The notes under the pieces were generated by a model. The model did no database searches, had not been told where the DNA came from, and saw only the letters and a list, made by a program, of their open reading frames with translations. Shown here one piece after another: positions 15,936-33,093 of a stretch of 64,000 nucleotides of DNA. Each line of letters begins with the position of its first letter. Positions within the stretch are counted from its first letter, which is position 1. Both the position numbers and the translations under genes were made by a program. Source of the DNA: Phaeodactylibacter sp. (GTDB taxonomy: Bacteria; Bacteroidota; Bacteroidia; Chitinophagales; Saprospiraceae); NCBI GenBank assembly GCA_024103175.1, contig JAGFJE010000433.1, forward strand, positions 1-64,000. The letters run 5' to 3'.

Positions 15936-18618
15936 GATCGCCGGGGGAGTTTTTCAAGATCTTGAAAAACTAAATTCACCAGAGTTAGAAAAACATACTA
16001 AAAAGCTATTTGATTTACATGCCAGAATAGAGGATTCCAAAAATACAATTAGCCAGGAACTCCTTGATTTTTGTCACAGCCTAAGCGAAAGAAAAGTACA
16101 AAATATCATTCAGAATTATCGAAGAGACCTGTACAATGGCCGCCTCAAAAGAAATGAACCGCAAGAGGCGGTATTCGATCTATTACCTGCCTCTATTGTA
16201 GAAAAGGCCATTCAGCATCAAAAGCTGCAAGACGAATATCAATCCTTACTAAAAAGTGGGGAAGAATTATTTGAAAATGAAGCTGCGAACAAAAGAGAGT
16301 CTTTAATGGCCCTGGCCCAAAAGGAGCACCTGAATAAAGGATTGACTTTATCAAGCCATACGCTTTATGAAAGGATCAAACACTTTACAAGAGGTAAAAA
16401 CCTGAAAAACAAAAAAGCAAGGCAAACCGAAATCGGGTTGCTCAAGTATTTATCACGCATATATGCCAAGACTTCGCCTTTCAGTACATTTACCAGCATC
16501 TGCTTGGCAGAAGTTGACCCGGCGACGAAAGGTATTGCATTAAAAGAAAAGGAGGCGCTCGAGAACAGGAATGTTGTGAGATTGAATAATTTTATTTTCC
16601 GGTCCATAAAAACAGCACTTTTTAATTGTCGGCTTTCTTTCTATCATTTCCCGGTAAGCCTCAACCCCTCGATTTTCAGAGAATCATCTCAGTTTCGATA
16701 TCTCATCAATTTTAATAATATAGAATCCATAAAAAGGATCGAGAGTAACCAGGTGTTGGAAGAAATATTTTCTTTACTCAAGAATACTGATGCGCCGCCG
16801 TCTTTCGGAAACCTGGCTCAAGCCTTGATAAAAATTGTAGCTGCATCTGATGCTGAGGTCGAACAGTATCTACTGACCCTTATAAATAACGGCTTCCTGG
16901 AATTCAATCTTCCCGTTTCAGGTATTGACCCCAATTGGGATCAAGCCTTAGCCCATTTTTTAAAATGCCTGAACCTTGACGACAATCCGATAATTGAAAG
17001 GACTATTTCTATATTAACTTCTCTGAGGCACCAGTGCGATGAATTAGGCAGATATGACGCTGCTCAAAGAAAAAAATCCATTCAGCAAGCCTATACAGAG
17101 CTTGTCGAATACTTCATACACATAGAAAAAGAATACATATTTAAAGAGCGGCCTGTGCCTAATCACGAAAATAACCAATCTGCATATTTCAGATTGAAGC
17201 CTGAGAATGTTTTTTACGAAGATACTGCTACTGGCCTGAATGTTACAATCGGAAATAAAGAACTGGATGATTTATTAGAAAGAGTAGACAAACTGATAGT
17301 AGGGCTCAATTATTTTGAGCCGATCTCAGCACAAAGAAAAGGCCTCAGCCAGTTTTTTAATCGGAAATACGGGCCGGAGAATGAGATTCCATTGCTAACT
17401 TTTTACGAAGATTATTTTCGGTTTATACATGAGGCAAACAAGAAAAAAAAAGAAGAGAACAAAAATTGGCCTGTTATTTATTTTCCCACTAATAACCATT
17501 TTGAACAGCAAAAATGGAAGGATCACTTCGCAAAGCGCATATTTGAAAAGCTTCCTGAACAACATACAGAAACAATCCATATCGAAGAAGAGGATCTTTC
17601 GAAGGTGAATGAAATCGTTGGAACCATTGATACAGAAATACAATCTTCTTATTCTTTATTTTCGCAATTATTCAGGGGAAAGGACGGAGGGCTGATGGCC
17701 ACGGTGAACATTCTCACAATAGGATATGGAAAGATGTTCAGCAGGTTTTTACACATTTTTGAAAAGCCTCTCATTGATCAAGTGAGGAAGTGGAATGATC
17801 ATGGCGCCGACGAATATTTAATGGTTGAAGAACATGACGCTTCCTATTTTAATGCAAATTTACATCCTCCCATGTTAGACTACGAAATCCTGATACCCGG
17901 GGGGCATTCTCAATTGCCAAAAAACAAGCAGCTTTTGGTATCTGACCTGACAATAAAATATTCGAAAAAGGAAAATGAGTTAAAACTATACAGCCCGGAA
18001 CTAAAACGAAGCTTATCTGTCCATGACATGGGGTTCCAAAGCCTTAATGGCAGATCCAAATTATTTGATTTATTGAATAAGTTCACTCAATGCCGGCTGG
18101 TTATGAGAATGTTAATTCATTCCGCCTTGAGGAAACATTCCAACGATTCCGCACAGGAAGGCAAGGCTTTCAACTCCAAAATTGATTTTAGGCCCCGAGT
18201 TGTCTTCGAAGACAAGATTATTCTGCAAAGAAAATACTGGATTGTCGATAAGGATGAAATCCCTCAAAAAAGTACAGAAGAATCAGATTGGCATTATTTT
18301 GTCAAATTAGATCATTGGAGGCGGTCACATGGTATGCCAACGGAGATTTTCATCGTAATCAATCCTCATTTGAAAGGGAACCTGCAAAGTAGAATAAAAA
18401 AAGAAATAAACAGCGATGATACCAAACCACAATATATCAATTTTTCCAATTTGTTCCTTGTAAAACTTTTCGAAAAAAGTTCTAAAAGAGTAATGAAAAA
18501 AATGTCAATAGTAGAAATGCTTCCCAACTCCCGGCAACTGCTTAAAACCAATAAGGGTGAAAAATACGTTTCTGAGTTTGTAATTCAATGGCACCTGACC
18601 AACAGCGATTCAAAATGA
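15892..18618 (+). CDS. Lantibiotic dehydratase, LanB N-terminal (glutamylation) domain protein
   Basis: A 908-residue protein matching the N-terminal part of class I lanthipeptide dehydratases. Known LanB enzymes use glutamyl-tRNA to glutamylate Ser and Thr of the precursor and then eliminate glutamate. Here only the glutamylation part is present. Visible family marks are RIYAKTSPFSTFTSI at about residues 189-202 (equivalent of the usual R-x-SPRxTPFG segment) and the ending EMLPNSRQLL...YVSEFVIQWHL close to the C-terminus. The elimination domain is a separate gene directly downstream, an arrangement known from Bacteroidota such as the pinensin producer. Its start lies inside the HlyD gene and its stop overlaps the next start, so all are co-translated. 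The DNA is visibly AT-richer than the flanking chromosome. Confidence 0.88.
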   Translation: MKKNARVIFPKVLTRIAGGVFQDLEKLNSPELEKHTKKLFDLHARIEDSKNTISQELLDFCHSLSERKVQNIIQNYRRDLYNGRLKRNEPQEAVFDLLPASIVEKAIQHQKLQDEYQSLLKSGEELFENEAANKRESLMALAQKEHLNKGLTLSSHTLYERIKHFTRGKNLKNKKARQTEIGLLKYLSRIYAKTSPFSTFTSICLAEVDPATKGIALKEKEALENRNVVRLNNFIFRSIKTALFNCRLSFYHFPVSLNPSIFRESSQFRYLINFNNIESIKRIESNQVLEEIFSLLKNTDAPPSFGNLAQALIKIVAASDAEVEQYLLTLINNGFLEFNLPVSGIDPNWDQALAHFLKCLNLDDNPIIERTISILTSLRHQCDELGRYDAAQRKKSIQQAYTELVEYFIHIEKEYIFKERPVPNHENNQSAYFRLKPENVFYEDTATGLNVTIGNKELDDLLERVDKLIVGLNYFEPISAQRKGLSQFFNRKYGPENEIPLLTFYEDYFRFIHEANKKKKEENKNWPVIYFPTNNHFEQQKWKDHFAKRIFEKLPEQHTETIHIEEEDLSKVNEIVGTIDTEIQSSYSLFSQLFRGKDGGLMATVNILTIGYGKMFSRFLHIFEKPLIDQVRKWNDHGADEYLMVEEHDASYFNANLHPPMLDYEILIPGGHSQLPKNKQLLVSDLTIKYSKKENELKLYSPELKRSLSVHDMGFQSLNGRSKLFDLLNKFTQCRLVMRMLIHSALRKHSNDSAQEGKAFNSKIDFRPRVVFEDKIILQRKYWIVDKDEIPQKSTEESDWHYFVKLDHWRRSHGMPTEIFIVINPHLKGNLQSRIKKEINSDDTKPQYINFSNLFLVKLFEKSSKRVMKKMSIVEMLPNSRQLLKTNKGEKYVSEFVIQWHLTNSDSK

Positions 18619-19559
18619 AGGAATGGTTGTCTGTCCATCTTTTTTTCGCGGGTTCCCTCTCGGCATTCATTGTCGAAGCCATCGTGCCTTTCTTGCAGTA
18701 TGCGAAGCGGGATGGCTTTATTGACCGTTACTTTTTCATCCGGTATGGGGAAGGCGGGCAACACATCAGGCTTCGGTTTTATACAGAAAAGCAAAAACAT
18801 GAAGAACTGAAAGCGCTTGTTTCCTCAATGTTTTCGGATTATTTCCAACACAACCCTTCAAAGAGAAAATATCATACGGATAGAGGCCTTTACCCGAACA
18901 ATTCTGTACAATATATTGACTATGAACCCGAAACAGACAGGTACGGAGGGGTGCAAGCACTAATGATTGCAGAAAACCAGTTTATGGTTTCCTCTGAAAC
19001 TATCATTGAGGAATTGTTGAAACACCGCGAGAAATGGACTTATGACCTGGCCATTGGAACAGGGTTCAAACTTCACGTCGGTTTCGCAAAAGCAGCAGGG
19101 ATACCCGCTTTGTGCGCTTCATTTTTTTTTCAATGCCTGGCCAATTCATGGATATCCAAAGCTTCAAAAGTATTTCAAAACAAGTCAAAAAATCAATTTG
19201 CTGAAACAAGAACAATATTTGAAAATCTCTTCCAACAAGGCAAGTCGCGTTATCTTGAGTATACCAAAGCAATATTCGAGGCCGGGCGAACAGAATGGAT
19301 TGAAGACCCAATTCTCAAGAAATGGATTGAATCAAATGAAAGGATATGTCGTTCATTCCAGTGCCTGCAAGCTGAAGGGAATATTAACTACCCACCTTGC
19401 TCCGAAGCGATCAAAAAAAATACTTGTTTTCACCCGATTTGGCCTATTTATTTCAGCCTTCTCCATATGACTAATAACAGGCTGGGGGTAGGCAATCGCG
19501 ATGAAGCATTTCTTTTTTACCTGCTCTATAGATCGTTCGGGTGGATCTCCAAAAATTGA
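18615..19559 (+). CDS. LanB elimination-domain protein (SpaB_C / thiopeptide-type)
   Basis: A 314-residue protein of the SpaB C-terminal or thiopeptide-type bacteriocin biosynthesis family, the second half of a split LanB that would eliminate glutamate from glutamylated Ser/Thr to give dehydro-residues. The family start WLSVHLFF, the basic strand FFIRYGEGGQHIRLRF (residues about 40-55, likely glutamate-binding arginines), and PETDRYGGVQALMIAENQF (about 118-136) are all present, with late helical segments ending in GNRDEAFLFYLLYRSF. A frame nine codons longer begins at 18588, but the ATG at 18615 makes an ATGA overlap with the LanB stop and directly precedes the family start. The metallophosphoesterase gene follows after three bases. 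Confidence 0.87.
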   Translation: MKEWLSVHLFFAGSLSAFIVEAIVPFLQYAKRDGFIDRYFFIRYGEGGQHIRLRFYTEKQKHEELKALVSSMFSDYFQHNPSKRKYHTDRGLYPNNSVQYIDYEPETDRYGGVQALMIAENQFMVSSETIIEELLKHREKWTYDLAIGTGFKLHVGFAKAAGIPALCASFFFQCLANSWISKASKVFQNKSKNQFAETRTIFENLFQQGKSRYLEYTKAIFEAGRTEWIEDPILKKWIESNERICRSFQCLQAEGNINYPPCSEAIKKNTCFHPIWPIYFSLLHMTNNRLGVGNRDEAFLFYLLYRSFGWISKN

Positions 19560-19562
19560 CCC

Positions 19563-20327
19563 ATGAAAGCCGCTGTATTTTCAGATATACACGAAGATGT
19601 GGCCGCATTAGAAAAAGCGATCGCTAAGACAGAAACCCTGGGATGCCAGGAAATAATCTGTTTAGGCGATATTGTAGGGTTTAGCGTACCTTTTTATGAC
19701 CATTTAACTTCCAGGAATGCCTCAAAGTGCATCGAGCTAATAAAAGATACTTGTTCTGTCATAGTGCTTGGCAACCACGACTTATTTGCGATCAAACAGC
19801 TTCCTTTTCCATTACACCCCTTACTAAATTTGCCTGCCGACTGGTACACAATGGATTATCCGGAGAGAAAAAAAATTGCCAACGGCAATTTTTGGCTTTA
19901 TGAGAATGAACTAGACACGTTGATTTCAAAAGAAGACAAAGAGTTCCTGTCAAGCCTTTCCGAGTTTGTTGCCAAAAGTTATGGCAAGGGCATTAACGTA
20001 CTATTTTCCCATTTTCTATTTCCTGACCTCACAGGTTCGGGGAAATGGTCTTTGCGTATTAGAGAACTCTTGCCTGATCACATTGCTTTTTGCCGGGAGA
20101 AAAAGTGCAAGGTCAGCTTTGTTGGGCACGGGCATCCGGTCAAACCCCTTATCATCTCAGAGAATAACGAATTATTTCCCCTTGATTTTGAAGGTTCGAT
20201 AGTACTGGATCCGAGTATTGGAATAAATATAGTAATGGTACCCGCCATAGGCAATAGAAAGGGCAAGAAGGGGTTCACTGTTTTTGATAGTGATAAATTG
20301 GAACTGTCAGCCATTCCGATCGGATAA
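19563..20327 (+). CDS. Calcineurin-like metallophosphoesterase in the lanthipeptide operon
   Basis: A 254-residue protein with the full metal-binding set of the metallophosphoesterase superfamily: D8 and H10 in SDIHED, D36 in LGDIVG, N71-H72-D73 in LGNHDLF, an isolated His in LFSHF, and the closing GHGHPV. It is predicted to be a cytoplasmic phosphomonoesterase or phosphodiesterase holding two metal ions. The substrate cannot be told. It is translated directly after the LanB elimination gene (3-base gap) as the fourth gene of the operon, which ties it to the pathway. Because an RNA ligase and a nucleotidyltransferase lie in the same island, an RNA-end phosphatase or cyclic phosphodiesterase role is an attractive guess, but a general nucleotide phosphatase is equally possible. 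Confidence 0.85.
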   Translation: MKAAVFSDIHEDVAALEKAIAKTETLGCQEIICLGDIVGFSVPFYDHLTSRNASKCIELIKDTCSVIVLGNHDLFAIKQLPFPLHPLLNLPADWYTMDYPERKKIANGNFWLYENELDTLISKEDKEFLSSLSEFVAKSYGKGINVLFSHFLFPDLTGSGKWSLRIRELLPDHIAFCREKKCKVSFVGHGHPVKPLIISENNELFPLDFEGSIVLDPSIGINIVMVPAIGNRKGKKGFTVFDSDKLELSAIPIG

Positions 20328-22375: not shown

Positions 22376-24577
22376 ATGAAAAGCTTTCCCGTATATAGAC
22401 AATTAGATAGCATTGACTGTGGGCCTGTCTGCTTGAAGGCCATTGCCAAACACTACGGAAGGACCATTCCCCTCGAATTGATACGAGAAAAAAGTTATAT
22501 CACTAATCAAGGTACGTCTATCGCTAATTTGGGGGTTGCCGCCGAGGAACTTGGATTCAGGACCCTAAGCGCCAAGCTACCTTTTGAGAACTTAAAAGAA
22601 GACGCCCCTCTGCCTTTAATCGCATTCTGGCGATCTAGGCATTTTGTAGTGGTTTACAAGTTCCGCAAAGGTAAAGTATATGTTGTTGACCCTGCCATCG
22701 GGGCAATAAAGTATAGCGAAAAGGAATTTAAAAAAGCATGGCTGAATGAGAAGGTTGATGGAAAAAAAACGGGCGTTGCCTTAATGTTGGAACCGACCCC
22801 CAAATTCCATGAACCTTCCTATGTAAGTACCCGAAAAAACAGAAGGGAGAAAAGAAAACTTTCCTTTTTTGTAAAATATTTATGGCCCTACCGCAAATAT
22901 TTTCTCCAAATCATCATGGGGCTTCTGATTGGGAGCCTGATTCAACTCATCCTGCCTTTTCTTGCTCAAGCACTAGTGGATAAAGGGATCAACGGCCGCA
23001 ACCTCGGTTTTGTGAACCTCATATTGATAGCCCAGGTATTTTTGCACTTTAGTGGAGCAATTGCAGGCTTTGTAAGGTCTTGGATTTATCTACACCTAGG
23101 TGTTAGAATCAATATTGCCATCATTTCAGATTTCCTCATTAAAGTATTGAAACTTCCAGTCTGGTTTTTTTCATCCCGTTCAGTGGGCGACCTCATGCAA
23201 AGGATCGGAGACCATAAACGGATTGAAAGTTTTCTTACCGGATCGCTACTCAATATTATCTTTTCTGTTTTCAACTTTTTTGTATTCTCAGCCATATTAA
23301 TTTTTTATCACATAAAAATATTTTTAATATTTTTGGCTGGAAGTATATTGTATATCATATGGATATTGCTCTTTCTAAATATAAGAAAGACCATGGATTA
23401 CAAAATGTTTGATCAACAATCCGATAATAAAAACACGCTAATAGAGTTGTTCCAGGGAGTTCAGGAGATTAAGCTACAAAACTGCGAGCAGAAAAAAAGA
23501 TGGAAGTGGGAGCGAATTCAGGCCAGTTTATTCAAAACGAGAATGAAAATGACTATTTTCGGCCAGTACCAATCTGGAGGAGCAATGCTCATTAACCAGA
23601 TAAAAAGCGTCGTGATTTCCTACGTTGCAGCAAAAAGTGTGATTTCCGGAGAGATCACTTTTGGAATGATGCTGGCTATTCAGTATATCCTAGGCCAGGC
23701 CACCGCTCCGATCGGCAGTTTCGTTCAATTTATCACCAATGCACAAATGGCTAAGATCAGCCTTGAACGCCTGAATCAAATTCATCAAAAACGAAATGAA
23801 GAAGATGAAGACAAAAAATTTGTAACCATCTACCCTGAAGACAGGTCGATCAACCTCATCCACCTGGGCTATCAATATCACGGCCCCAAATCGCCATTTG
23901 CGATCCAGGACATTAATATTAAAATTCCGGAGGGAAAGATAACAGCAATTGTCGGAGCAAGCGGCAGTGGAAAAACAACTCTTATCAAGTTATTACTTAA
24001 ATTTTATTACCCTTCAAGTGGAAGCATAAAGTTAGGAGGGGTTAACTTAAAAAATATTAGTGCAAAATGGTGGCGTGATAAATGCGGGGCCGTTTTACAA
24101 GATGGTTATATTTTTACAGACAGTATCGCCAACAATATCGCGGTAAATGATGACATCATTGATAAGGAAAGGCTGATTTATGCCGCATATGTAGCCAACA
24201 TCCAGGAATTTATCGAGTCTTTGCCAATGGGTTATAATACCAAGATAGGAGCCAATGGGCAGGGGATCAGCCAAGGGCAGAAGCAGAGAATATTGATTGC
24301 CCGCGCGGTCTACAAAGACCCCGATTATCTGTTTTTCGACGAGGCGACCAATGCTTTGGATTCAAAGAACGAACACATCATCATGCAGAGGTTGCAAGAA
24401 TTTTACAAAGGAAGGACCGTAGTCGTTGTAGCTCACCGGATGAGCACTGTTAAATCCGCTGATCAAATAATCGTATTGGACAATTCCAGGTTGATCGAAA
24501 AAGGCACCCATGCTGAACTGGTAAAAAAACGAGGCATCTATTACAACCTGATAAGAAATCAATTAGAACTGCATTGA
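22376..24577 (+). CDS. C39-peptidase ABC exporter (PCAT) for double-glycine leader peptides
   Basis: A 733-residue peptidase-containing ABC transporter. The C39 cysteine protease domain (residues 1-135) has its catalytic Cys 15 in DCGPVC, His 89 in SRHFVVVY and Asp 105 in VVDPAIG. It cuts leaders after Gly-Gly. Six transmembrane helices lie at about 165-450. The nucleotide-binding domain (about 500-733) shows Walker A GASGSGKTT, signature GISQGQKQR, Walker B LFFDEATNALD and the His switch VVAHRMS. All three precursor genes of the island carry a GG site, so this exporter most likely cleaves and exports them with the HlyD adaptor. Its gene ends 7 bases before the convergent LanC gene. Class I lanthipeptides normally rely on LanP subtilases, so this pairing is notable. 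Confidence 0.92.
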   Translation: MKSFPVYRQLDSIDCGPVCLKAIAKHYGRTIPLELIREKSYITNQGTSIANLGVAAEELGFRTLSAKLPFENLKEDAPLPLIAFWRSRHFVVVYKFRKGKVYVVDPAIGAIKYSEKEFKKAWLNEKVDGKKTGVALMLEPTPKFHEPSYVSTRKNRREKRKLSFFVKYLWPYRKYFLQIIMGLLIGSLIQLILPFLAQALVDKGINGRNLGFVNLILIAQVFLHFSGAIAGFVRSWIYLHLGVRINIAIISDFLIKVLKLPVWFFSSRSVGDLMQRIGDHKRIESFLTGSLLNIIFSVFNFFVFSAILIFYHIKIFLIFLAGSILYIIWILLFLNIRKTMDYKMFDQQSDNKNTLIELFQGVQEIKLQNCEQKKRWKWERIQASLFKTRMKMTIFGQYQSGGAMLINQIKSVVISYVAAKSVISGEITFGMMLAIQYILGQATAPIGSFVQFITNAQMAKISLERLNQIHQKRNEEDEDKKFVTIYPEDRSINLIHLGYQYHGPKSPFAIQDINIKIPEGKITAIVGASGSGKTTLIKLLLKFYYPSSGSIKLGGVNLKNISAKWWRDKCGAVLQDGYIFTDSIANNIAVNDDIIDKERLIYAAYVANIQEFIESLPMGYNTKIGANGQGISQGQKQRILIARAVYKDPDYLFFDEATNALDSKNEHIIMQRLQEFYKGRTVVVVAHRMSTVKSADQIIVLDNSRLIEKGTHAELVKKRGIYYNLIRNQLELH

Positions 24578-24584
24578 CCTGATT

Positions 24585-26633
24585 TCAACTTATTGCAGCC
24601 ACCTGAATAAAGTTATTCCTTGCTAAAACAGCCGTTTGATCCAACACTTTCTGCCCCACGGCCTCCCGGTCAACTTGATTTTCGATTTCTAATTCTTGAA
24701 AGACAAGCTCCGCCAGGTCAAAAACAGAAATCTCTTGCCTGATTTCTATTTGGCTCAACAAAAAATAATTGAACCTGGTAATTGAGTACTGTTTTGTAGT
24801 TTTGCCGTCAAAGGTGCTGAAAATAAAAACCTCCTGCCCTCTATCGGCCTCTTGGGCCCCCCAGTGGCCAGCCAACCAGTTCCACTCTAACCTAAACAGT
24901 GCAGAAGCCGGTTTGCTTTTCAGGATCAACTGAGAGTCTTTAATTTTACCGGAACTTAATCCATAGAATGCTTGAGAGAAATTTTTTCGGTTGATGAAAT
25001 GTAAAGTACTCAAATAAAAATTCCCATGAGATGTGTTTGGCAATTGCCAGTTCTTTAGTTCAAAATCGAAAACCTCTTTTATCAATTTCGAGTCAGGCAG
25101 TTTGTCTATCACGGCCTGTATTCTTTCGACAAAAGGCTCAAGCCCCTCGTCTCTATTATTCGCAAATAAGGATTGTTCAAGGGTGGAAAACTCCTCCTCT
25201 CCGGCCAGATACTCCAGCAATGATAGCGTTCTTCGAAAAACATTTTTTGTACACCGGCTGAACAAACTCGACTCTGTGGCAAACAAGGATCCCGGCAGAG
25301 GGCCTTTGGCCACAATCGGGCCTGCAACAGAGGGTTTTATTATTGAGCTTTCTTTTCGATCAAGGTAGCTCACATAAAAATATCCTACTCCAGCAAGCCC
25401 CATGAATAGGCTGTAATCTTTGTCATCTTTACTTAGCTTGGCTAAGCCGGGCTGATACCTGCCATGGGAGCTGCAGTATTTGATTTGCCTGGCAATGGTT
25501 GCCTCTAACTGTTCTTCTATTGTTAAAGTTTCCCCATTCAATTCCTCAGCGCAATGGATTATAACCATGGCATTCCCACTTGTCCCATGGCAAAGGCAAT
25601 GACTGAACAAATGGCTCGAATTCAAGGATTGAATAGTGCTCTGAATCGATTTTTTCAAGTCATTTTTCCATAATTCAGAGCCTTGAGTTGATTTTAATTC
25701 AAACCTCGTCAAAGCGATACCTGGTGAACCATGACACCAGGCGTTCATATATTTAGGGCGGGTGAAATAAGATAGGTCTTCCAGGCTCTGAAAGCCATAT
25801 TTCTCCATATTGGCCTCACTATTCAACCTGGGTTTTCTGAAATCTTTCCAATTATTATTTTTTTTACTATAAAATTGATTTTCATAATTAAAACTTTGTT
25901 CTGCAATCCAATAATAAGCAGCGTTGTCGAACAATTTAGCCAATTGTATGAAAACATAACCAATCCCAGACGAACCATGGGAAAAACCCGTGAGGGGCCA
26001 TATCTCCCAACCCGTAATATCCCAAAAAATGCCACGCCTCCCCCACTTAACTCCATCGAGTAAGTGGTTGACATATTGTTCAATAAGTTGAAGTATCTCC
26101 TGGCTTTGTTTTTTCTCGTACAGGAAAAGCAGCCCCAGCAAAGCTCCCGCCGTCCCATTCAACAGGTCATATACCGGCGGGTCCCTCAACTCAATAAACC
26201 TGCCGCATTTTATAGCAAGCTCTTCTGCTTTTTCCAAATAGGCTTTCTCAGCCAACGATTCATATACTTTAAGCAAGGTATACACCACTCCCATCCTGCC
26301 AGTGTAAAAAGCATAATTGTCAGTAGGGTTTTCCCGGCAATACCGGTAAAGCCAGCCAACAGACTTAATAATAGCCTGCCGATATTTATCATCATTCGTT
26401 ATTTCATATAACCTGATGAAAAACAATATTATTCCGCTAACCCCTGAATAAACAGTTTCAAAGGCCTGAAAATAAATTTCCTCATCAATTACTTTCGGTG
26501 AGATCCAGAAATAGTTACCGTATTCATCCTCTTTCCTGGATTCGAGTATTTCTTCTCCAACTCTGATCAGCTCTTTAAAAACAGGTGAATGTTCCACAAA
26601 ACATATTTTTTTCCGGAAAGTTACTACTTTCAA
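24585..26633 (-). CDS. Lanthionine synthetase C-like cyclase with long C-terminal extension
   Basis: A 682-residue protein. Residues about 40-430 form the LanC alpha/alpha-barrel. The zinc ligands are Cys 300 in AWCHGSPG and Cys 348-His 349 in LCHGTSGN, and the catalytic-type His 219 lies in GFSHGSSG. It should add precursor cysteines to dehydro-residues to form (methyl)lanthionine rings. LanC proteins are usually about 400 residues. The extra 250 C-terminal residues have no family I recognise; their last 70 (FNYFLLSQIEIRQEISVF onwards) look like a small winged-helix-type fold, possibly a peptide-binding element. No in-frame ATG exists at the front, so the start appears to be TTG at 26631-26633. 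The gene is convergent with the exporter gene and divergent from the RNA ligase gene. Confidence 0.87.
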   Translation of the reverse strand: MKVVTFRKKICFVEHSPVFKELIRVGEEILESRKEDEYGNYFWISPKVIDEEIYFQAFETVYSGVSGIILFFIRLYEITNDDKYRQAIIKSVGWLYRYCRENPTDNYAFYTGRMGVVYTLLKVYESLAEKAYLEKAEELAIKCGRFIELRDPPVYDLLNGTAGALLGLLFLYEKKQSQEILQLIEQYVNHLLDGVKWGRRGIFWDITGWEIWPLTGFSHGSSGIGYVFIQLAKLFDNAAYYWIAEQSFNYENQFYSKKNNNWKDFRKPRLNSEANMEKYGFQSLEDLSYFTRPKYMNAWCHGSPGIALTRFELKSTQGSELWKNDLKKSIQSTIQSLNSSHLFSHCLCHGTSGNAMVIIHCAEELNGETLTIEEQLEATIARQIKYCSSHGRYQPGLAKLSKDDKDYSLFMGLAGVGYFYVSYLDRKESSIIKPSVAGPIVAKGPLPGSLFATESSLFSRCTKNVFRRTLSLLEYLAGEEEFSTLEQSLFANNRDEGLEPFVERIQAVIDKLPDSKLIKEVFDFELKNWQLPNTSHGNFYLSTLHFINRKNFSQAFYGLSSGKIKDSQLILKSKPASALFRLEWNWLAGHWGAQEADRGQEVFIFSTFDGKTTKQYSITRFNYFLLSQIEIRQEISVFDLAELVFQELEIENQVDREAVGQKVLDQTAVLARNNFIQVAAIS

Positions 26634-26727
26634 ATTAAAGTATAGATAATTTGTACAATCATTTATTTTGCAATATTTTCAGGCTGCTTAATGTGTTGTC
26701 CACCGGATTATAAAACAGAAAACAGAA

Positions 26728-27879
26728 ATGGAGCAATTTAATAAGGCTATCCTTGACCAATACGTGAAAGACACCCCCATCACCTGTGAAAAACATCCTA
26801 CTGAAGACTTGTACATTTACGGTTACTATCCGGGGTTATCCAAACAAAGGATCATTTGGGATGAAGTGAACAAACACTGCCGGGGGCTGATAATCGATGG
26901 AAAAGGCAATGCCCACGCAAGGCCATTCACTAAGTTCTTCACCTTCAAGGAATATGTATCTCCTTTTAAGATCAAATTGTCTGATAATCAAATTTTGAGG
27001 TTACCTAAAGGAAATTTCAAGATCTATGAGAAGGTGGATGGCACTATGGCCACTCTGTACTGGGTTGGAGAAAAACCGGTGTTAGCCACACAGCGGTCGT
27101 TTTCAAATGAAAAAGCTCGCATAGCAACAGAAATTCTGTATGAAAAATACGCCCATACTTTTAATAAACTAAAAAGGGATAGAACCTATGTTTTTGAAGC
27201 TATTTATCCCGAATGTAAAGTCCTTATCGATTATGGTGATAAAAGAGACCTCGTATTAATTGGGGTCATTGACAATTGTACGGGAGAGGACCTCCCCCTG
27301 GAAGATATTGGTTTTCCAATAGCGAAGGACTATACCCAAGAGTACGGGCACATTGTCAACTTTGAAGAAATCCAGCAATTAGATATTAAAAATATGGAAG
27401 GTTTTGTCTTGGTCTATCCTAACTGCATTAGGATAAAACTGAAGTTTCCTTGGTTCATAGAAGCGCATAAATTGATGAGCAGGATCATTAGTCATTTCTC
27501 TGAAATCTATACTGCAAGTAGTACCCTCGCCGACATGTTAAACAAAAGAAAGAAATATATATCCAACTTCACTATTTGGGAACACATGAAAGCGGGTAAA
27601 CCGATAGGCTCCCTTCTCCAATGGGTCCCGGAAGAATATTATTACTGCGGATTTGAGCATTGGATAAAATCTATTTCAGAAGACTTCGAAAGGCGTTATC
27701 ACGACCTTGCCGTTCAGAATAATGGAAATCAGCAGCCAGATCGTGAAAAGATATGGGATTTCCTACAACCAGACGCAGATGCACTGGATGTCTTTAAAGT
27801 TGAAGAAAGAAGGCCGCTTCCGGAAAACAATTCAGTAATGTGGAAATGGATGGAACGGTTTGAGAAGTGGTACGATTGA
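26728..27879 (+). CDS. T4 Rnl1-like RNA ligase
   Basis: A 383-residue nucleotidyltransferase-superfamily ligase. The adenylated lysine is predicted at residue 102 in motif I, YEKVDGTMATLYW (KxDG). Before it come NKHCRGLIID and ARPFTKFFTFKEY, typical of the Rnl1 front. Motif III-like YVFEAIYP, motif IV MEGFVLVYP and motif V RIKLKFPWF follow in order, then a helical C-terminal domain (about 270-383). It would seal RNA 3'-OH and 5'-phosphate ends using ATP; T4 Rnl1 repairs cut anticodon loops. It lies between the LanC gene and the precursor genes and is separated from them only by an IS630-type insertion, so it probably belongs to the island. A link to tRNA supply for LanB is a hypothesis. Confidence 0.87.
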   Translation: MEQFNKAILDQYVKDTPITCEKHPTEDLYIYGYYPGLSKQRIIWDEVNKHCRGLIIDGKGNAHARPFTKFFTFKEYVSPFKIKLSDNQILRLPKGNFKIYEKVDGTMATLYWVGEKPVLATQRSFSNEKARIATEILYEKYAHTFNKLKRDRTYVFEAIYPECKVLIDYGDKRDLVLIGVIDNCTGEDLPLEDIGFPIAKDYTQEYGHIVNFEEIQQLDIKNMEGFVLVYPNCIRIKLKFPWFIEAHKLMSRIISHFSEIYTASSTLADMLNKRKKYISNFTIWEHMKAGKPIGSLLQWVPEEYYYCGFEHWIKSISEDFERRYHDLAVQNNGNQQPDREKIWDFLQPDADALDVFKVEERRPLPENNSVMWKWMERFEKWYD

Positions 27880-27892
27880 TCGAACAGCTATA

Positions 27893-27919
27893 CACCGCTC
27901 GGTCACCAGAGGTGAAAAT
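27893..27919 (+). repeat. IS630 left terminal inverted repeat
   Basis: The left end CACCGCTCGGTCACC-AGAGGTGAAAA pairs with the right end at 29016-29042, with differences mainly in the outermost ten bases. The same form recurs at the right end of the 164-bp non-autonomous element. Confidence 0.8.
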
Positions 27920-27923
27920 GTTG

Positions 27924-28886
27924 TCAAGCCACCTCAAGGAGCTGAAATTTAAGGTTCATCAACTCGTTGATTTCCTCCTCGTGCAACCCTTCATTGACTT
28001 CGTCAATAAAGTTGTCAATGGCTTCAACGAAGTCTTGCTTGGTTGGGTAATGGAAGCCAGCCAGGACTTGCTTTTTGAGGTATTTCCAAAACCGCTCGAT
28101 AAGGTTCAGGTTAGGGGAGTATGGGGGTAGGAAAACCAGGTGAACCCGGTATTTCCTGGCGGCCTTGGCCACCAATTCGCACCTTTGATAGCGGGCATTG
28201 TCCAAAACCAGGTATATGCTCCTTCCCGGCAATTCTTCGCGAAGGAAGCCAATGAGCTCGACAACCGTTGTGGCTTTGATATAATCAGTTGTGCTGATAC
28301 TGTACAATTCGTGCGTGGCAGCATGCATAGCTCCCAGGATGTTCACTCGCTGGCGGCCGCTTGACGTCCTTACTGAGATGGGCTTCTCGCTCCATACATG
28401 GCCGTTGTGAAAGCCTTGTACGGGGTGTGCCGCGTCGACAAAGAACACATCCGCCACTCCTCGTGTGGCCTTGTCCAGCAAGGGGTTCAACTCCTGCTCA
28501 AGGAAAGCCGCCTGCTTGGCAGCCAGCTCTTTGATAGGCAGCTTCCCTCCAGGCAGGGGGCGGAACTTACGATAGCGGAACTTGAGCACGTGCTTGACAA
28601 ATTTGCGCACTTGGCTCATTCCACGCTCCAAGCCGGTAAGCTGCTTGATCCGTTTGCGCGCCTCGCTGGCACAACGTGGCGGATCCTTGTCAAAATCTGC
28701 CTTGATCTTGTCGGCATAGTTCACCAAATCGCTGGAAGGGCGGTAGCACTCTACTGCCAGCAGCCCGGCCCGCCCCCGTTCCATATAGGCCTTCATCCAG
28801 CGGGTAACCGAATTGGGGTGCACATCAGCTACCTCGGCGCACGGGCCAGGCCGAAGCCCCTTGGCCCGAAGATATAGTACATGCAT
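27924..28886 (-). CDS. IS630-family transposase
   Basis: A 320-residue transposase. The N-terminal helix-turn-helix contains ADVHPNSVTRWMKAY (residues about 20-34). The DDE catalytic residues are visible as Asp 151 (VFFVDAAH), Asp 229 (LVLDNARYQ) and Glu 264 (NLIERFWKYLKK), with the FLPPYSPNLN signature before the Glu. The family usually has a further segment ahead of MHVLYLRAKG. Here the codons directly before the ATG read SPLIRQR but are closed by an in-frame stop, while another frame at 28898-28942 encodes a 14-residue start (MNTQDTTKSKVVHH). A one-base frameshift or a programmed shift may therefore separate the true N-terminus. The catalytic part is intact. The gene ends 31 bases from the left IS end. 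Confidence 0.9.
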   Translation of the reverse strand: MHVLYLRAKGLRPGPCAEVADVHPNSVTRWMKAYMERGRAGLLAVECYRPSSDLVNYADKIKADFDKDPPRCASEARKRIKQLTGLERGMSQVRKFVKHVLKFRYRKFRPLPGGKLPIKELAAKQAAFLEQELNPLLDKATRGVADVFFVDAAHPVQGFHNGHVWSEKPISVRTSSGRQRVNILGAMHAATHELYSISTTDYIKATTVVELIGFLREELPGRSIYLVLDNARYQRCELVAKAARKYRVHLVFLPPYSPNLNLIERFWKYLKKQVLAGFHYPTKQDFVEAIDNFIDEVNEGLHEEEINELMNLKFQLLEVA

Positions 28887-29015
28887 ACGTTGGCGGATTA
28901 ATGGTGAACAACCTTACTTTTTGTAGTATCTTGCGTGTTCATAGTCAGCTTCGCTGATTATCGGAGAGTACATATTTTACAGGTTTGGTTACCCACAAAG
29001 ATAGGTACTCTCCAA

Positions 29016-29042
29016 CTTTTCACCTCTAGTGACCGCGCTTAG
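29016..29042 (-). repeat. IS630 right terminal inverted repeat
   Basis: Read inward it begins CTAAGCGCGGTCAC, then TAGAGGTGAAAAG. It matches the left end of the 164-bp non-autonomous element almost completely. Confidence 0.8.
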
Positions 29043-29050
29043 TATATCTA

Positions 29051-29461
29051 TCAGACATACAAGCACCCACCCTCTGCAATGGAATCACAATCCGTATCTG
29101 TATCACATTCCCCTACGGAATCGCATTCACCTATTGTTTGCCCTTCATTTGGTATACAATAAGGGCCATCAGCTGAGGCACATAGATCATTGTCGGAATT
29201 GGGGTCACAAATCACCATATCGCTGTCGCAATTTGTGCCTATAGAATGGCAGAGGCCGTCGAAAGAGTCGCCTTGCCAAAAATCGATCAAAGTATTATCA
29301 TCGCACATTACGCCTACGACTGTCTCGCAGGGAGCACAGGTATTTTCCTGGCCAGTGCCGCCAATTACGTGTTCCATCCCGTTCCTACCCGGCTTGTCAT
29401 TCAAGGTAGTGACAAAACTTTGTATCCTCAGGTCGTCTAACTTGAGTTTTTGCCTGGACAT
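29051..29461 (-). CDS. Lanthipeptide-type precursor 1 (long, 12-Cys acidic core)
   Basis: A 136-residue precursor. The leader (1-35) has QKLKLDDLRIQSFVTTL and ends in HVIGG, a double-glycine site for the C39 exporter. The core of 101 residues holds 12 cysteines, many Asp and many Ser/Thr, and ends in GGCLYV. The leader is of the Bacteroidota class I (pinensin-like) type. Precursor 2 matches it through the last 65 residues: LCxS, CDP/CNP, NDLCAS/NNLCAS, PYCxP, CDSV, CDTxxDCDS and GGCLY in the same order. Known lanthipeptide cores are mostly 20-40 residues, so this core is unusually long. The gene lies 27 bases after precursor 2 on the same strand. The IS630 element sits 7 bases behind its stop. 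Confidence 0.88.
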   Translation of the reverse strand: MSRQKLKLDDLRIQSFVTTLNDKPGRNGMEHVIGGTGQENTCAPCETVVGVMCDDNTLIDFWQGDSFDGLCHSIGTNCDSDMVICDPNSDNDLCASADGPYCIPNEGQTIGECDSVGECDTDTDCDSIAEGGCLYV

Positions 29462-29488
29462 AGGTCAAAATTTGATAATGCGGAAGTT

Positions 29489-29923
29489 TTACGAATACAA
29501 ACACCCTCCCGGAGCTTTGGAATCACAATCATCAACAGTATCGCAACCACCGGCAACCACAGAATCACAATCCTGGATTGTTGGAGTGCAATACGGGCTC
29601 CCGAACGCTTCCGAGGCACATAGATTATTTGAACTCATAGGGTTGCAGACAACCACATTCGAGCTGCAATCACTCTCGTCGGAAACACAAAGGTTTGCCG
29701 AATTATTTTCCCACGCATCTATACAAACATTGCCGTCAGCGCTTTGGCCATCACAGGCCCTGAAACTTTCTGTGTCGCACATGGCTTCACTATCTACAGG
29801 GTTATCGCACGGCCCAGTGGCATCCGTACCACCAATGATTCCCATTGCTTTCAAGCCAACTTCGTCCAAAACGGTAACAAAGCTTTGAATTCTGAGGTCT
29901 TCTAATTTAAGCTTTTCTTTCAT
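29489..29923 (-). CDS. Lanthipeptide-type precursor 2 (long, 13-Cys acidic core)
   Basis: A 144-residue precursor. The leader (1-32) contains MKEKLKLEDLRIQSFVT and ends in GIIGG. The core of 112 residues contains 13 cysteines spread evenly, with an Asp/Asn/Ser/Thr-rich background, and ends in GGCLYS. The C-terminal half is closely related to precursor 1, while the front of the core differs, as if the two arose by duplication and then diverged. The upstream region shares a block of about 30 bases with precursor 3 at the same distance from the ATG. It should be modified by the split LanB and the LanC of the island and exported by the C39 ABC transporter. Confidence 0.88.
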   Translation of the reverse strand: MKEKLKLEDLRIQSFVTVLDEVGLKAMGIIGGTDATGPCDNPVDSEAMCDTESFRACDGQSADGNVCIDAWENNSANLCVSDESDCSSNVVVCNPMSSNNLCASEAFGSPYCTPTIQDCDSVVAGGCDTVDDCDSKAPGGCLYS

Positions 29924-29956
29924 GGTCAGAGTGATTTATGTAAATCTTAAATAGAG
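29924..29956 (-). promoter_or_regulatory. Conserved upstream block of precursor 2
   Basis: Bases directly before the ATG match the block before precursor 3 (30456-30488) with identical spacing: CACTCTGA-(C/T)-C next to the ATG and TATTTAAGAT farther out. It may be a leader region or ribosome-loading site kept after duplication. Confidence 0.5.
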
Positions 29957-30069
29957 CCACATCCGACGCTTTGCCCACAGCACACATTGTCGATACTCAA
30001 AATAATAAAAGCTATTGGAAAACGGATAATTCGCCTTACCACGGGCGAAATCACATTTGGGAAATACTA
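29947..30069 (-). pseudogene. Possible remnant of a further precursor core
   Basis: Between the 164-bp element and precursor 2 a frame beginning at a GTG inside the gap ends with DNVCCGQSVGCGSI and a TAA just before the conserved upstream block. The Cys/Ser/Gly composition resembles a lanthipeptide core end, but there is no leader. It may be a decayed precursor gene or chance. Confidence 0.2.
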
Positions 30070-30071
30070 TA

Positions 30072-30235
30072 CTAAGCGCGGTCACCAGAGGTGATTTTTC
30101 TGAAACCCGCATAAAACCTGACCTTTTTATTATGAGTCTCAAAGTCCGCGTTATCACTGAAGGAAGTAACTTTTGGTTCCAAAAGCTAAGTCTCGGAGCA
30201 TTTGTCAACTTTTCACCTCTGGTTACCGAGGGGTG
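30072..30235 (+). mobile_element. 164-bp MITE-like relative of the IS630 element
   Basis: The left end (CTAAGCGCGGTCACCAGAGGTGA) equals the right end of the IS630 element. The right end, read inward (CACCCCTCGGTAACCAGAGG), equals the left end of the IS. TA flanks both sides (30070-30071 and 30236-30237). The inside has no open reading frame but contains a small palindrome (cttttggttccaaaag). It is a non-autonomous element probably moved by the IS630 transposase, in opposite orientation. It stands 6 bases after the stop of precursor 3 and so splits the precursor operon. Confidence 0.82.
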
Positions 30236-30242
30236 TATATCT

Positions 30243-30455
30243 CTACCAATCATCACATCCCGGAGGCGCAGTGAGACATAGCTCTGCTTCAGTTGGGTTA
30301 CACTGTGGGCCGTCTCTGGTTTCCGTTTGCCAATGGTCAAGCGGCGTTGTAATATCTGCCCCACCAACAATGCCTATATTGTTGATATCAATATTGTTCG
30401 AGGCTGTTACGAAGCTTTGGATTTTCAGGTCTTCCAACTTAAGCTTGTCTTCCAT
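30243..30455 (-). CDS. Lanthipeptide-type precursor 3 (38-residue, 3-Cys core)
   Basis: A 70-residue precursor. The leader (1-32) contains MEDKLKLEDLKIQSFVT and ends in GIVGG. The core of 38 residues starts ADITTP, has Cys 52, 60 and 67 and six threonines but no serine, and ends in GCDDW. Up to three thioether rings are possible. This is a size usual for lanthipeptides, in contrast to the long cores of precursors 1 and 2. It is the promoter-proximal gene of the precursor group. A MITE-like element follows 6 bases after the TAG stop, which lies outside the element, so the peptide is complete. Confidence 0.85.
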   Translation of the reverse strand: MEDKLKLEDLKIQSFVTASNNIDINNIGIVGGADITTPLDHWQTETRDGPQCNPTEAELCLTAPPGCDDW

Positions 30456-30488
30456 GATCAGAGTGTTTTAAATAGATCTTAAATAAAA
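30456..30488 (-). promoter_or_regulatory. Conserved upstream block of precursor 3
   Basis: It shares CACTCTGATC directly before the ATG and TATTTAAGAT about 20 bases farther out with the region before precursor 2, at equal spacing. It lies in the divergent gap to the nucleotidyltransferase gene, which must hold promoters for both. Confidence 0.5.
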
Positions 30489-30688
30489 CAGCGTTAGGGG
30501 CAGCGTCACGTAAAAAGGACGTATTGCCGATGTTAAAATGAAGACGAATAAAGACTATAAAATATCTAAAATCAGAAATTGAGCAAAGGAGTTATAAAGT
30601 TATGAAAAAAATTCAAAAAAGTCCAAATTTGAATATGGATAAATGAAAAAAAAATGCTTCTTTAGGCTATATTCGAAACCTGCCAAAG

Positions 30689-32347
30689 ATGAAAACCCGA
30701 AAAGAGCTTTTTGCTATTGCTAAAAAATTTATCGAAAAAGAATTTCCCGGATCAACAGCGGCTATGCTTACAGGAAGCGTTGTTTCAGGAACTTCCTCGA
30801 AGTTTTCAGACCTGGATATCATTATCGTGATCAACCGTGCAGAGGATCTGGGCAAGCATGAAAGGGTCAAAAATTACGAGGGGGTTCCTATTGATATGCT
30901 TATCATTCCCGAGACTCAATTGTACCGGGTGATGGAAAGAGACCTGAAATCAACTGCCGGCGCCATCATTCGGATGTTAAAAGAAGGCAGGATAATAAAA
31001 GACAATGACTCTTTTCTGGCAGATGCGCAAAATTATGCAAAAACGCTGTATTCAAATGGAAGGCCGTCGCCAAGCAGTGCTGAAATAAAAACAAAAATAA
31101 TTACCATCACAAAAAGGCTTGAGGACCTCAAATCTCCCTCGATCAGCGAAGGCGAGGCATTGTTCCTCGTTCTCGAAATTACAAGAGCGCTGGCTTACCT
31201 CAATCTGATTGCGAATAAAAAGTGGCCAGGCAAAGGAAAGCATCTTGCCAAAAACCTGGAAAACCTATCCTCTTCACTTTACAATGCTTTAGTGGCTAAG
31301 GCAACAAAAGCCATCGCAACAAATGAAAAGGAGCCGTTTATAAACCTCGCCAAAGAAAACCTTCAACTGTATGGAGGGCAGATTGACAGTTATTCTGCCT
31401 CAGAGTTTTTTGAAGATAAAATTCAAAACGAACGCATTACTTTTGAGATCAGAGGCAACTTGGATTATGATGACATCATAATCCACTTCCTTCTTCCGCT
31501 TCAGGATAAACTCACTGGCGGCAGCTATAAGCAGATCCAATTCCAGAGCTACGGAACGCTTTCCAATTCCGTCCTCATTTCCATATCCGGAAAATATGAA
31601 TTCCTTAAGAATATTGTCCTTCCTATTGTTGAAAAACACACCATGGCCTTTTCAGAGATAGCTCCATCAGGCAGGATTGTTATCCAATATAAGGAGTGGG
31701 AAGAATTTCCAATAGAATTCGGTGGGCAAGAAGCATTCAACGCGTTGGAGGGCCTTCGGGGCCAGCTGGGAAACACCGCCTTAATTATTTTCAGAAAACA
31801 TGCTGATGAATGGAACCAGGATATTGCTGTTTCCCAGGCATTGTTTTTGGTAATTGGGGTAATTAAAAGTTCAAGTATTACAAATATAAGCCAATATATA
31901 AGTTATTTATATAATGAATGGATCAAATATACGTTAGCCCGGGATGCGGAATACATCAAACCCAATTACAATAATGTTCAGCAAACGAACCTCAAAAAGT
32001 TCGAAACCCTATACCAAGGAAACTACCTTGCTATCTCCCGGTCTTACAAAAAATTTTTGCTCAAAGGCCTTGATGAACTGGAAATTGAAAATGACTGGTT
32101 TGCAGATTGGATAACAGAGGCTAAACGAGCAGATGGCCTTTTAAACAACATTCCGGAACAAAAAATGAAAGTATACGAATTCAAAAAGAACAACATCCCT
32201 AGCAGTATTCCGGAACAAGAACGAAACCTATATGTTATTTACAAAAGCCTGATAAGATCTGTATTTGATATTTTTGGAGTCAAACCTTTAAATATCCATT
32301 ATTCTGTATTTCTTTTAAAGAAGCTGTTGGAGCAGGAGCAAGAATAG
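30689..32347 (+). CDS. Nucleotidyltransferase with a SpaB_C-like (LanB elimination-like) domain
   Basis: A 552-residue protein. Residues 1-110 are a pol-beta-type nucleotidyltransferase with LTGSVVSGTSSKFSDLDII, the GS-x(n)-DxD core. A helical part (about 130-235) follows, similar in kind to HEPN-like partners of such enzymes. Residues about 245-400 resemble the island's LanB elimination protein when aligned by eye: IIIHFLLP with SVHLFF, FQSYGTLSNSVLISIS with FIRYGEGGQHIRLRF, IQYKEWEEFPIEFGGQEA with QYIDYEPETDRYGGVQA. The arginines of the R-x-R strand are missing, so elimination activity is doubtful. Its position at the island's end, divergent from the precursors, supports a role in the pathway. 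The fusion is my reading, not a database result. Confidence 0.7.
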   Translation: MKTRKELFAIAKKFIEKEFPGSTAAMLTGSVVSGTSSKFSDLDIIIVINRAEDLGKHERVKNYEGVPIDMLIIPETQLYRVMERDLKSTAGAIIRMLKEGRIIKDNDSFLADAQNYAKTLYSNGRPSPSSAEIKTKIITITKRLEDLKSPSISEGEALFLVLEITRALAYLNLIANKKWPGKGKHLAKNLENLSSSLYNALVAKATKAIATNEKEPFINLAKENLQLYGGQIDSYSASEFFEDKIQNERITFEIRGNLDYDDIIIHFLLPLQDKLTGGSYKQIQFQSYGTLSNSVLISISGKYEFLKNIVLPIVEKHTMAFSEIAPSGRIVIQYKEWEEFPIEFGGQEAFNALEGLRGQLGNTALIIFRKHADEWNQDIAVSQALFLVIGVIKSSSITNISQYISYLYNEWIKYTLARDAEYIKPNYNNVQQTNLKKFETLYQGNYLAISRSYKKFLLKGLDELEIENDWFADWITEAKRADGLLNNIPEQKMKVYEFKKNNIPSSIPEQERNLYVIYKSLIRSVFDIFGVKPLNIHYSVFLLKKLLEQEQE

Positions 32348-32367
32348 CGCGCCAATGAAACAATACA

Positions 32368-33093
32368 TCACATTTTAAGGTAGAAAGCCCCTGTAAGTTG
32401 CACATATTCATCTGTCCATTCGTCGATTTCCCCTTTATGAATGGTCAGGATGGATTTCCGCATGGCTTTTGGTTGTTTTTCAAATTGCATTAATAACCGT
32501 TCTAGCTTACTGCCTTGTCGGGGATATACTTCGGCCATCCTCGTGCAATGCAGATTGTAGCTTTGGGCCAGTTCCTGAAAGCGCAACCCTTCTAAAAAGG
32601 GTAAGATCACACAGAAGCGGCCCTCAGGCGCCAGGAGGCTTCTAACCGCAGCCAGGAGATCGCCATGAGGTAATTTGATCGTATGCCTGACACTGTTGCG
32701 GTCTTGATTCTGAGAAAAAGTGCCGCCTGAAAAGAAAGGAGGATTGCTTACAATGAGGCCGTACCGGCTGATGGCAAAGGGTACATAATCCTGCACGGCA
32801 GTATGGAAAACTTTCAGGCGGCTCTTCCAGGGAGAAGCCCTCATATTCTCTGCGGCCTGTTTGGCGGAGGCTGAATCGATTTCAACAGCATGAATGATAG
32901 CCTGCTCCGTTCTCTGAGCTAACATTATGGCGACAAGGCCGCTCCCGGCGCCAATATCTAAAATATTGCTGACGCCTGAAATATCAGCCCATGCCCCTAA
33001 CAAAACCCCATCCGTTCCAACTTTCATTCTGCATCTGTCCTGGTGGATGGTGAATTGTTTGAAGTAAAACGGCTTTGCTTTATCCTGTCGCAT
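32368..33093 (-). CDS. trmN6: tRNA1(Val) adenine-37-N6 methyltransferase
   Basis: A 241-residue class I SAM-dependent methyltransferase. The SAM-binding motif is ILDIGAGSGLVAIMLAQR (about residues 44-61), the acidic residue follows in HAVEID, and the catalytic NPPFF motif for amino-adenine methylation lies at about residue 117. The front FKQFTIHQDRCRMKVGTDGVLLGAW is characteristic of YfiC/TrmN6, which methylates A37 of tRNA1Val. The ATG at 33091-33093 is used; the three codons before it begin with TTG. Base composition returns here to that of the chromosome, so the gene probably marks the right edge of the lanthipeptide island. It is convergent with the nucleotidyltransferase gene, with a 20-base gap. 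Confidence 0.9.
   Translation of the reverse strand: MRQDKAKPFYFKQFTIHQDRCRMKVGTDGVLLGAWADISGVSNILDIGAGSGLVAIMLAQRTEQAIIHAVEIDSASAKQAAENMRASPWKSRLKVFHTAVQDYVPFAISRYGLIVSNPPFFSGGTFSQNQDRNSVRHTIKLPHGDLLAAVRSLLAPEGRFCVILPFLEGLRFQELAQSYNLHCTRMAEVYPRQGSKLERLLMQFEKQPKAMRKSILTIHKGEIDEWTDEYVQLTGAFYLKM

Follow-up and report, generated by a model that had tools for sequence, protein, structure and literature searches.

Within the 64,000-nucleotide stretch of Phaeodactylibacter sp. DNA analysed here (the window), a single gene joins a nucleotidyltransferase (NTase) to a domain that resembles the elimination domain of LanB dehydratases. The gene lies in an island of the pinensin type, and this raises the question of what such a protein is made of and what it might do to the peptides encoded beside it. 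The features of the island that bear on the question are listed below.

14583-15935, + strand: HlyD-type exporter adaptor (profile searches)
15892-18618, + strand: glutamylation part of LanB (Lant_dehydr_N; PF04738, 5.7e-40)
18588-19559, + strand: genuine stand-alone SpaB_C elimination protein (PF14028, 4.7e-39; TIGR03891, 1.1e-28)
19563-20327, + strand: calcineurin-like metallophosphoesterase, directly 3' of the SpaB_C gene in the operon
22376-24577, + strand: C39-peptidase ABC exporter (profile match)
24585-26633, - strand: LanC-like cyclase with a C-terminal extension (PF05147, 3.3e-64)
26728-27879, + strand: T4 Rnl1-like RNA ligase, adjoining the LanC gene (PF09511, 3.4e-13)
27924-28886, - strand: IS630-type transposase-like ORF within the island (assigned by eye)
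29051-29461, - strand: pinensin-type double-glycine (GG) leader precursor 1, 136 aa, 12 Cys (NF038180, 32.1 bits)
29489-29923, - strand: pinensin-type GG-leader precursor 2, 144 aa, 13 Cys (NF038180, 27.4 bits against a cut-off of 24)
30243-30455, - strand: another such precursor, the shortest of the three, 70 aa (leader LKLEDLKIQSFVT...GIVGG)
30689-32347, + strand: the NTase-SpaB_C-like fusion gene, 552 aa, ATG start
30689-31396, + strand: its part for a pol-beta-type NTase with helical substrate domain, residues 1 to about 236 (PF01909 match; free-standing NTases aligned end to end)
31397-32344, + strand: its part for a predicted SpaB_C / Lant_dehydr_C-fold domain in which the elimination residues are absent, residues about 237 to 552 (hhalign, shuffle control, fold match)

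The two halves of the fusion protein

An earlier note on this DNA had described an open reading frame with a GS-x(n)-DxD nucleotidyltransferase core in front and a SpaB_C-like domain behind it. Both the core and the two-part architecture, with the NTase extending to about residue 236, are borne out by sequence comparison and by the predicted fold. PF01909 (NTP_transf_2) matches residues 12-78 (E 1.1e-6), its score of 29.3 bits exceeding the cut-off of 21; the core reads G29-S30-x10-D41-x-D43, and with D69 as the third acid the NTase motifs are intact. Free-standing NTases of about 240 aa align over their entire length with residues 1 to about 236 and no further, which sets the domain border; they come from the Geobacillus plasmid pGS18 (2e-16), from Streptomyces (3e-15) and from Cytobacillus (8e-13). 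Residues 1-2 align with the start of a relative in Flavobacterium limi, in keeping with the ATG start. The best NCBIfam match of the NTase is the MntA antitoxin (NF047752) and is weak (E 0.0089, 15.9 bits against a cut-off of 60), the F. limi relative giving E 0.0066 with the same model; a sequence search of the PDB with the NTase half returned nothing significant. When plasmids were searched by tblastn with the fusion, the matches covered the NTase only, and a comparable search of phages found nothing. A protein of a Legionella hackeliae plasmid (L020:5974-7149) has the same kind of NTase joined to a GNAT acetyltransferase domain and is another fusion involving this family.

As for the second half, the peptides on which a by-eye likeness to the SpaB_C protein of the island (18588-19559) had been founded are all present (HFLL at 266-269, FQSYG at 285-289, IQYKEW at 332-337, FGGQEA at 344-349 and VSQALFL at 381-387), and the likeness is far beyond chance, with a BLASTP value of 2e-5 for the pair. 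The fusion also reached SpaB_C genes of pinensin islands in other genomes by tblastn, at 1.1e-6 and 2.1e-6. A direct match to SpaB_C / TIGR03891, which the same note had named as support, was not obtained: neither PF14028 nor TIGR03891 matched the full protein or its C-terminal part at E <= 1, and none of the Pfam and NCBIfam SpaB_C models detects the domain. Residues 236-552 were then compared by hhalign with six pinensin SpaB_C sequences. The window domain alone gave E 2.7e-11, and the window and F. limi domains together gave E 9.1e-15 over 260 columns with a score of 106, a value to be set against a peak of 24.5 in 100 column shuffles. The F. limi domain alone gave a weaker match (2.5e-4, 128 columns, in the C-terminal half). 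One profile-profile comparison (E 1e-67) was disregarded, because its profile contained the island SpaB_C and was not independent. The remaining profile-profile comparisons indicate that the C-domain is homologous to SpaB_C.

A full-length AlphaFold model built from two sequences reached a pLDDT of just 44, and this poor model was left out of the fold search. A model of the C-domain from three sequences reached a moderate pLDDT of 63 and a pTM of 0.69; the three-row alignment included the island SpaB_C, so that the fold match is supportive, not independent. The top 21 Foldseek matches of this model were all TbtD, PbtD/[4+2] cyclases, TsrL, MadB, NisB or MibB. In VIA-align the model scored Z 18.8 with NisB chain 732-990 (rmsd 3.0, 225 aligned), 17.7 with MibB and 17.4 with TbtD (rmsd 3.7, 268 aligned), and the best unrelated fold in the VIA ranking had a Z of 7.8. 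The two methods agree with the earlier proposal of an NTase joined to a LanB-elimination-like fold, and together with the homology they predict that residues from about 240 to 552 have the SpaB_C / Lant_dehydr_C fold. The domain had been placed at 240-420 and is in fact longer, reaching the C-terminus. A HEPN or other helical fold, the outcome that had been named as contrary to the proposal, found no support in the structural search. No part of the protein matched PF04738, the Lant_dehydr_N glutamylation domain, and it is thus not a full LanB dehydratase.

Whether the fold could still eliminate glutamate was examined in NisB numbering, fixed by aligning the pinensin SpaB_C profile to NisB (4wd9); this located R784-L-R786, R826-Y827 and H961-x4-R966. 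The island SpaB_C protein has the corresponding RLR, RYGG and H293-x4-R motifs. In the fusion R784 is replaced by L296, R786 by S298, R826 by E343 and H961 by R523, and the absence of the R-x-R arginines, already remarked on in the earlier note, is thereby confirmed. The F. limi relative has lost RLR and H and has kept an R at the RYGG-like place. The NisB mutants R786A, R826A and H961A carry out glutamylation and fail in elimination (PMC4979651; for H961 also PMC4341554). Because the equivalents of R784, R786, R826 and H961 are all replaced, glutamate elimination by the C-domain of the fusion is very unlikely on sequence grounds, and an intact SpaB_C elimination protein is present in the island anyway.

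Relatives of the fusion and their loci

A non-random sample of Bacteroidota (1,998 genome searches in total, repeats included) yielded fusion-type genes in the window genome, in F. limi and in three further genomes, G1082, G1031 and G1202. A scan of genome contigs with the fusion had F. limi as its sole match. The F. limi protein matches the window protein over its full length (1e-25) and has the identical architecture, which rules out a chance fusion or an assembly artefact in the window. Between the G1082 and G1202 proteins (514 and 519 aa) the relationship is clear from end to end (about 3e-42); with those of the window and F. limi it lies in the NTase half. The C-domains of G1082 and G1202 matched neither SpaB_C nor the window C-domain in hhalign; the two proteins are counted as members for their NTase half, their equal length and the context of their loci, together with a weak bridge through F. 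limi (BLASTP alignments reaching F. limi residue 286-287, with 2e-8 and 4e-5 over the entire span), and the SpaB_C fold is not claimed for them. The G1031 copy (L032:9382-10578), nearly identical to that of G1082, is broken by an in-frame stop.

Identity among the four members (window, F. limi, G1082 and G1202) is 16-26%, and the NTase motif is nonetheless conserved, with G29, S30, D41 and D43 invariant. The third acid is D in three of the four and Q in F. limi, whose protein may thus be inactive. Variation is greater in the C-domain (14-23% identity), where only three columns are invariant (L407, Y496 and Y518). The fusion protein is rare yet recurring, and no local accident.

In the window, F. 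limi and G1202 the fusion gene stands beside genes for double-glycine cargo and for an ABC exporter with a C39 peptidase; at least three of the four separate fusion loci therefore adjoin peptide exporters. In F. limi the fusion and C39-ABC genes share 8 bp, HlyD comes next, and a divergent gene encodes a DUF6973 protein that has a GG leader and a glycine-rich linker; the locus also contains a TolC-like gene. The sole LanB and SpaB_C of F. limi are on another contig. The order in G1202 is fusion, GG-leader protein (with a glycine-rich linker and an HExxH motif), 213-aa protein, C39-ABC and HlyD. LanB and LanC genes are absent next to the fusion in both of these loci, and the cargo proteins of both are free of Cys. 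The G1082 fusion is preceded by a VKOR-thioredoxin gene, a homologue of the 213-aa protein (2e-17) and a gene for a 586-aa exported-looking protein that has an HExxH region in common with the G1202 cargo (1.5e-6). In G1082 and G1031 the signal of this exported-looking neighbour is Sec-like, not of the GG type, and the short contig carries no C39 exporter. The GG-leader cargo differs strongly between the loci. The HExxH region that the exported-looking proteins at L046:11046-11729 and L045:6987-8747 have in common belongs to no Pfam family; both proteins contain glycine-rich linkers and are possibly secreted metallopeptidase cargo.

Within the window it is the third precursor gene (30243-30455) that adjoins the fusion gene, divergently. 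The island LanC has an extension of about 250 aa C-terminal to the LanC domain, and LanC proteins of matching length (672-677 aa) are encoded in other pinensin islands (L024, L025 and L026). The other pinensin islands examined do not contain the fusion gene, and for this reason it must be dispensable in canonical islands. Nor do they contain the metallophosphoesterase, which could act together with the fusion NTase by removing nucleotides or phosphate, or the RNA ligase. An Rfam search of 26000-33000 gave no match and PADLOC nothing useful. Beside one pinensin island, two adjacent ORFs (L024:14651-16605) resemble, on visual inspection, the pair of ATP-grasp ligases of a graspetide (microviridin-type) system.

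Possible roles of the fusion

The fusion probably decorates or guards exported cargo. The explanation that we prefer, tentatively and at somewhat less than even chances, is that of a tailoring enzyme in which the SpaB_C fold binds a precursor and the NTase nucleotidylates it. The cargo would be C39-exported peptides or proteins with double-glycine leaders, in the window the pinensin-type precursors. The SpaB_C-fold half would hold it in the manner of the precursor-binding relatives TbtD and MroD, and the NTase would attach a nucleotide, or else a phosphate group derived from an NTP, to a cargo side chain prior to export; catalysis would then fall to the NTase, and the C-domain would hold the substrate and co-vary with the cargo. 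MroD, which has the SpaB_C fold, recognizes a leader peptide (PMC9247985), and 5wa4, among our Foldseek matches, is TbtD crystallised with its leader bound. Lasso-peptide clusters have likewise recruited nucleotidyltransferases, some of them fused to the B2 protein (PMC8498205; PMC9266682). The conserved NTase motif, the lost elimination residues and the setting among exporters and GG cargo at three loci count in favor of tailoring; the Q of F. limi, the poor conservation of the C-domain, the absence of the fusion from canonical pinensin islands, the lack of a GG leader and of a nearby C39 exporter in G1082 and G1031, and the likeness of the NTase to free-standing enzymes count against it.

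A somewhat unlikely alternative is self-protection or control, in which the SpaB_C half recognizes a toxic cargo and the NTase AMPylates or otherwise nucleotidylates that cargo, or a partner protein, to silence it within the producing cell. The model for this would be MntA, which AMPylates and silences HepT. MntA is the best, albeit weak, NCBIfam match of the fusion, the metallopeptidase-like HExxH cargo of G1202 and G1082 and the DUF6973 cargo of F. limi may be toxic, and the divergence of the cargo from locus to locus is in keeping with such a function. However, the MntA score is far under the cut-off, no HEPN partner gene was noticed nearby, and AMPylation-based immunity is not a known need of pinensin-type peptides.

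The acceptor of the NTase could also be a small molecule, since the enzyme resembles free-standing NTases with unrelated neighborhoods. On the plasmids, two of these end-to-end relatives neighbor aminoglycoside-type phosphotransferase genes, and the C-domain is evolving fast, as might be expected if a resistance-like NTase, for example, had been captured by a RiPP locus and the SpaB_C half were a catalytically dead remnant. This is unlikely, because a useless half should vanish, whereas the fused architecture has lasted at about 20% identity in four lineages, mostly by exporters. If instead both halves were degenerate, the fusion might merely escort cargo to the C39 exporter as a non-catalytic adaptor or chaperone, and the Q of F. 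limi, the missing elimination residues and the overlap of the F. limi gene with that of its exporter would agree with this. The complete G-S...D-x-D motif and third acid D of the window, G1082 and G1202 proteins, preserved despite such low identity, make it improbable.

Dha and Dhb are known to arise by way of glutamylation (LanB) or phosphorylation (LanM/KC/L). A further, tRNA-independent LanB analogue, in which the NTase forms a Ser/Thr nucleotide ester and the SpaB_C-like half removes the nucleotide by elimination, leaving dehydroamino acids, would match the LanB-like domain order (activating, then elimination), the loss of glutamate-eliminating residues, which fits another leaving group, and the lack of LanB at the F. 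limi and G1202 loci, but is highly improbable, given that the H961 equivalent is gone, that the invariant C-domain columns offer no candidate catalytic residue, that a complete LanB pair is already present in the window and that the F. limi and G1202 cargo has no Cys. If true, it would add another route to Dha/Dhb.

Comparison with known systems

The position of the fusion beside C39 exporters points to nucleotide-dependent modification, or control, of exported RiPP-like cargo in Bacteroidota, for which the NTase-SpaB_C pairing provides a searchable signature. A tailoring role predicts an unexpected mass on some pinensin-type products. The known roles of SpaB_C folds are glutamate elimination and [4+2] cyclisation; the fusion suggests that the fold can serve other enzymes as a peptide-holding module.

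With SpaB_C / Lant_dehydr_C proteins, that is, the LanB elimination domain and the split pinensin protein, the fusion shares the predicted fold and collinear homology over some 260-280 columns. It differs in escaping the curated models (PF14028, TIGR03891), in the four replaced residues, and in that its C-domain is carried on an NTase, in place of a glutamylation domain or separately from one. The [4+2] cyclases of thiopeptide and pyritide pathways (TbtD, PbtD, TclM-like, MroD), which are leader-binding, were the best Foldseek matches and are examples of the same fold with non-elimination chemistry. Unlike them the fusion carries an NTase; it had no match to NF045556 (thiopeptide pyridine synthase) at E <= 1, and neither a thiopeptide precursor nor azole enzymes were seen in the window island. 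The free-standing NTases of Geobacillus pGS18, Cytobacillus and Streptomyces are homologous across residues 1 to about 236 and have no C-terminal SpaB_C fold. The MntA antitoxin of type VII toxin-antitoxin systems has the same minimal NTase core.

A literature search found no paper joining "SpaB_C" with "nucleotidyltransferase", and the wording RiPP/lantibiotic dehydratase gave only an irrelevant one. The fusion may be an undescribed enzyme type. Its parts are known, and an NTase fused to a RiPP enzyme has precedent in the lasso peptides, where PsmN of pseudomycoidin and the B2-fused NTases were likewise recruited to maturation proteins; the partner there is a lasso leader peptidase, whereas here it is a SpaB_C fold, and both this combination and the way in which it recurs in connection with export appear to be new.
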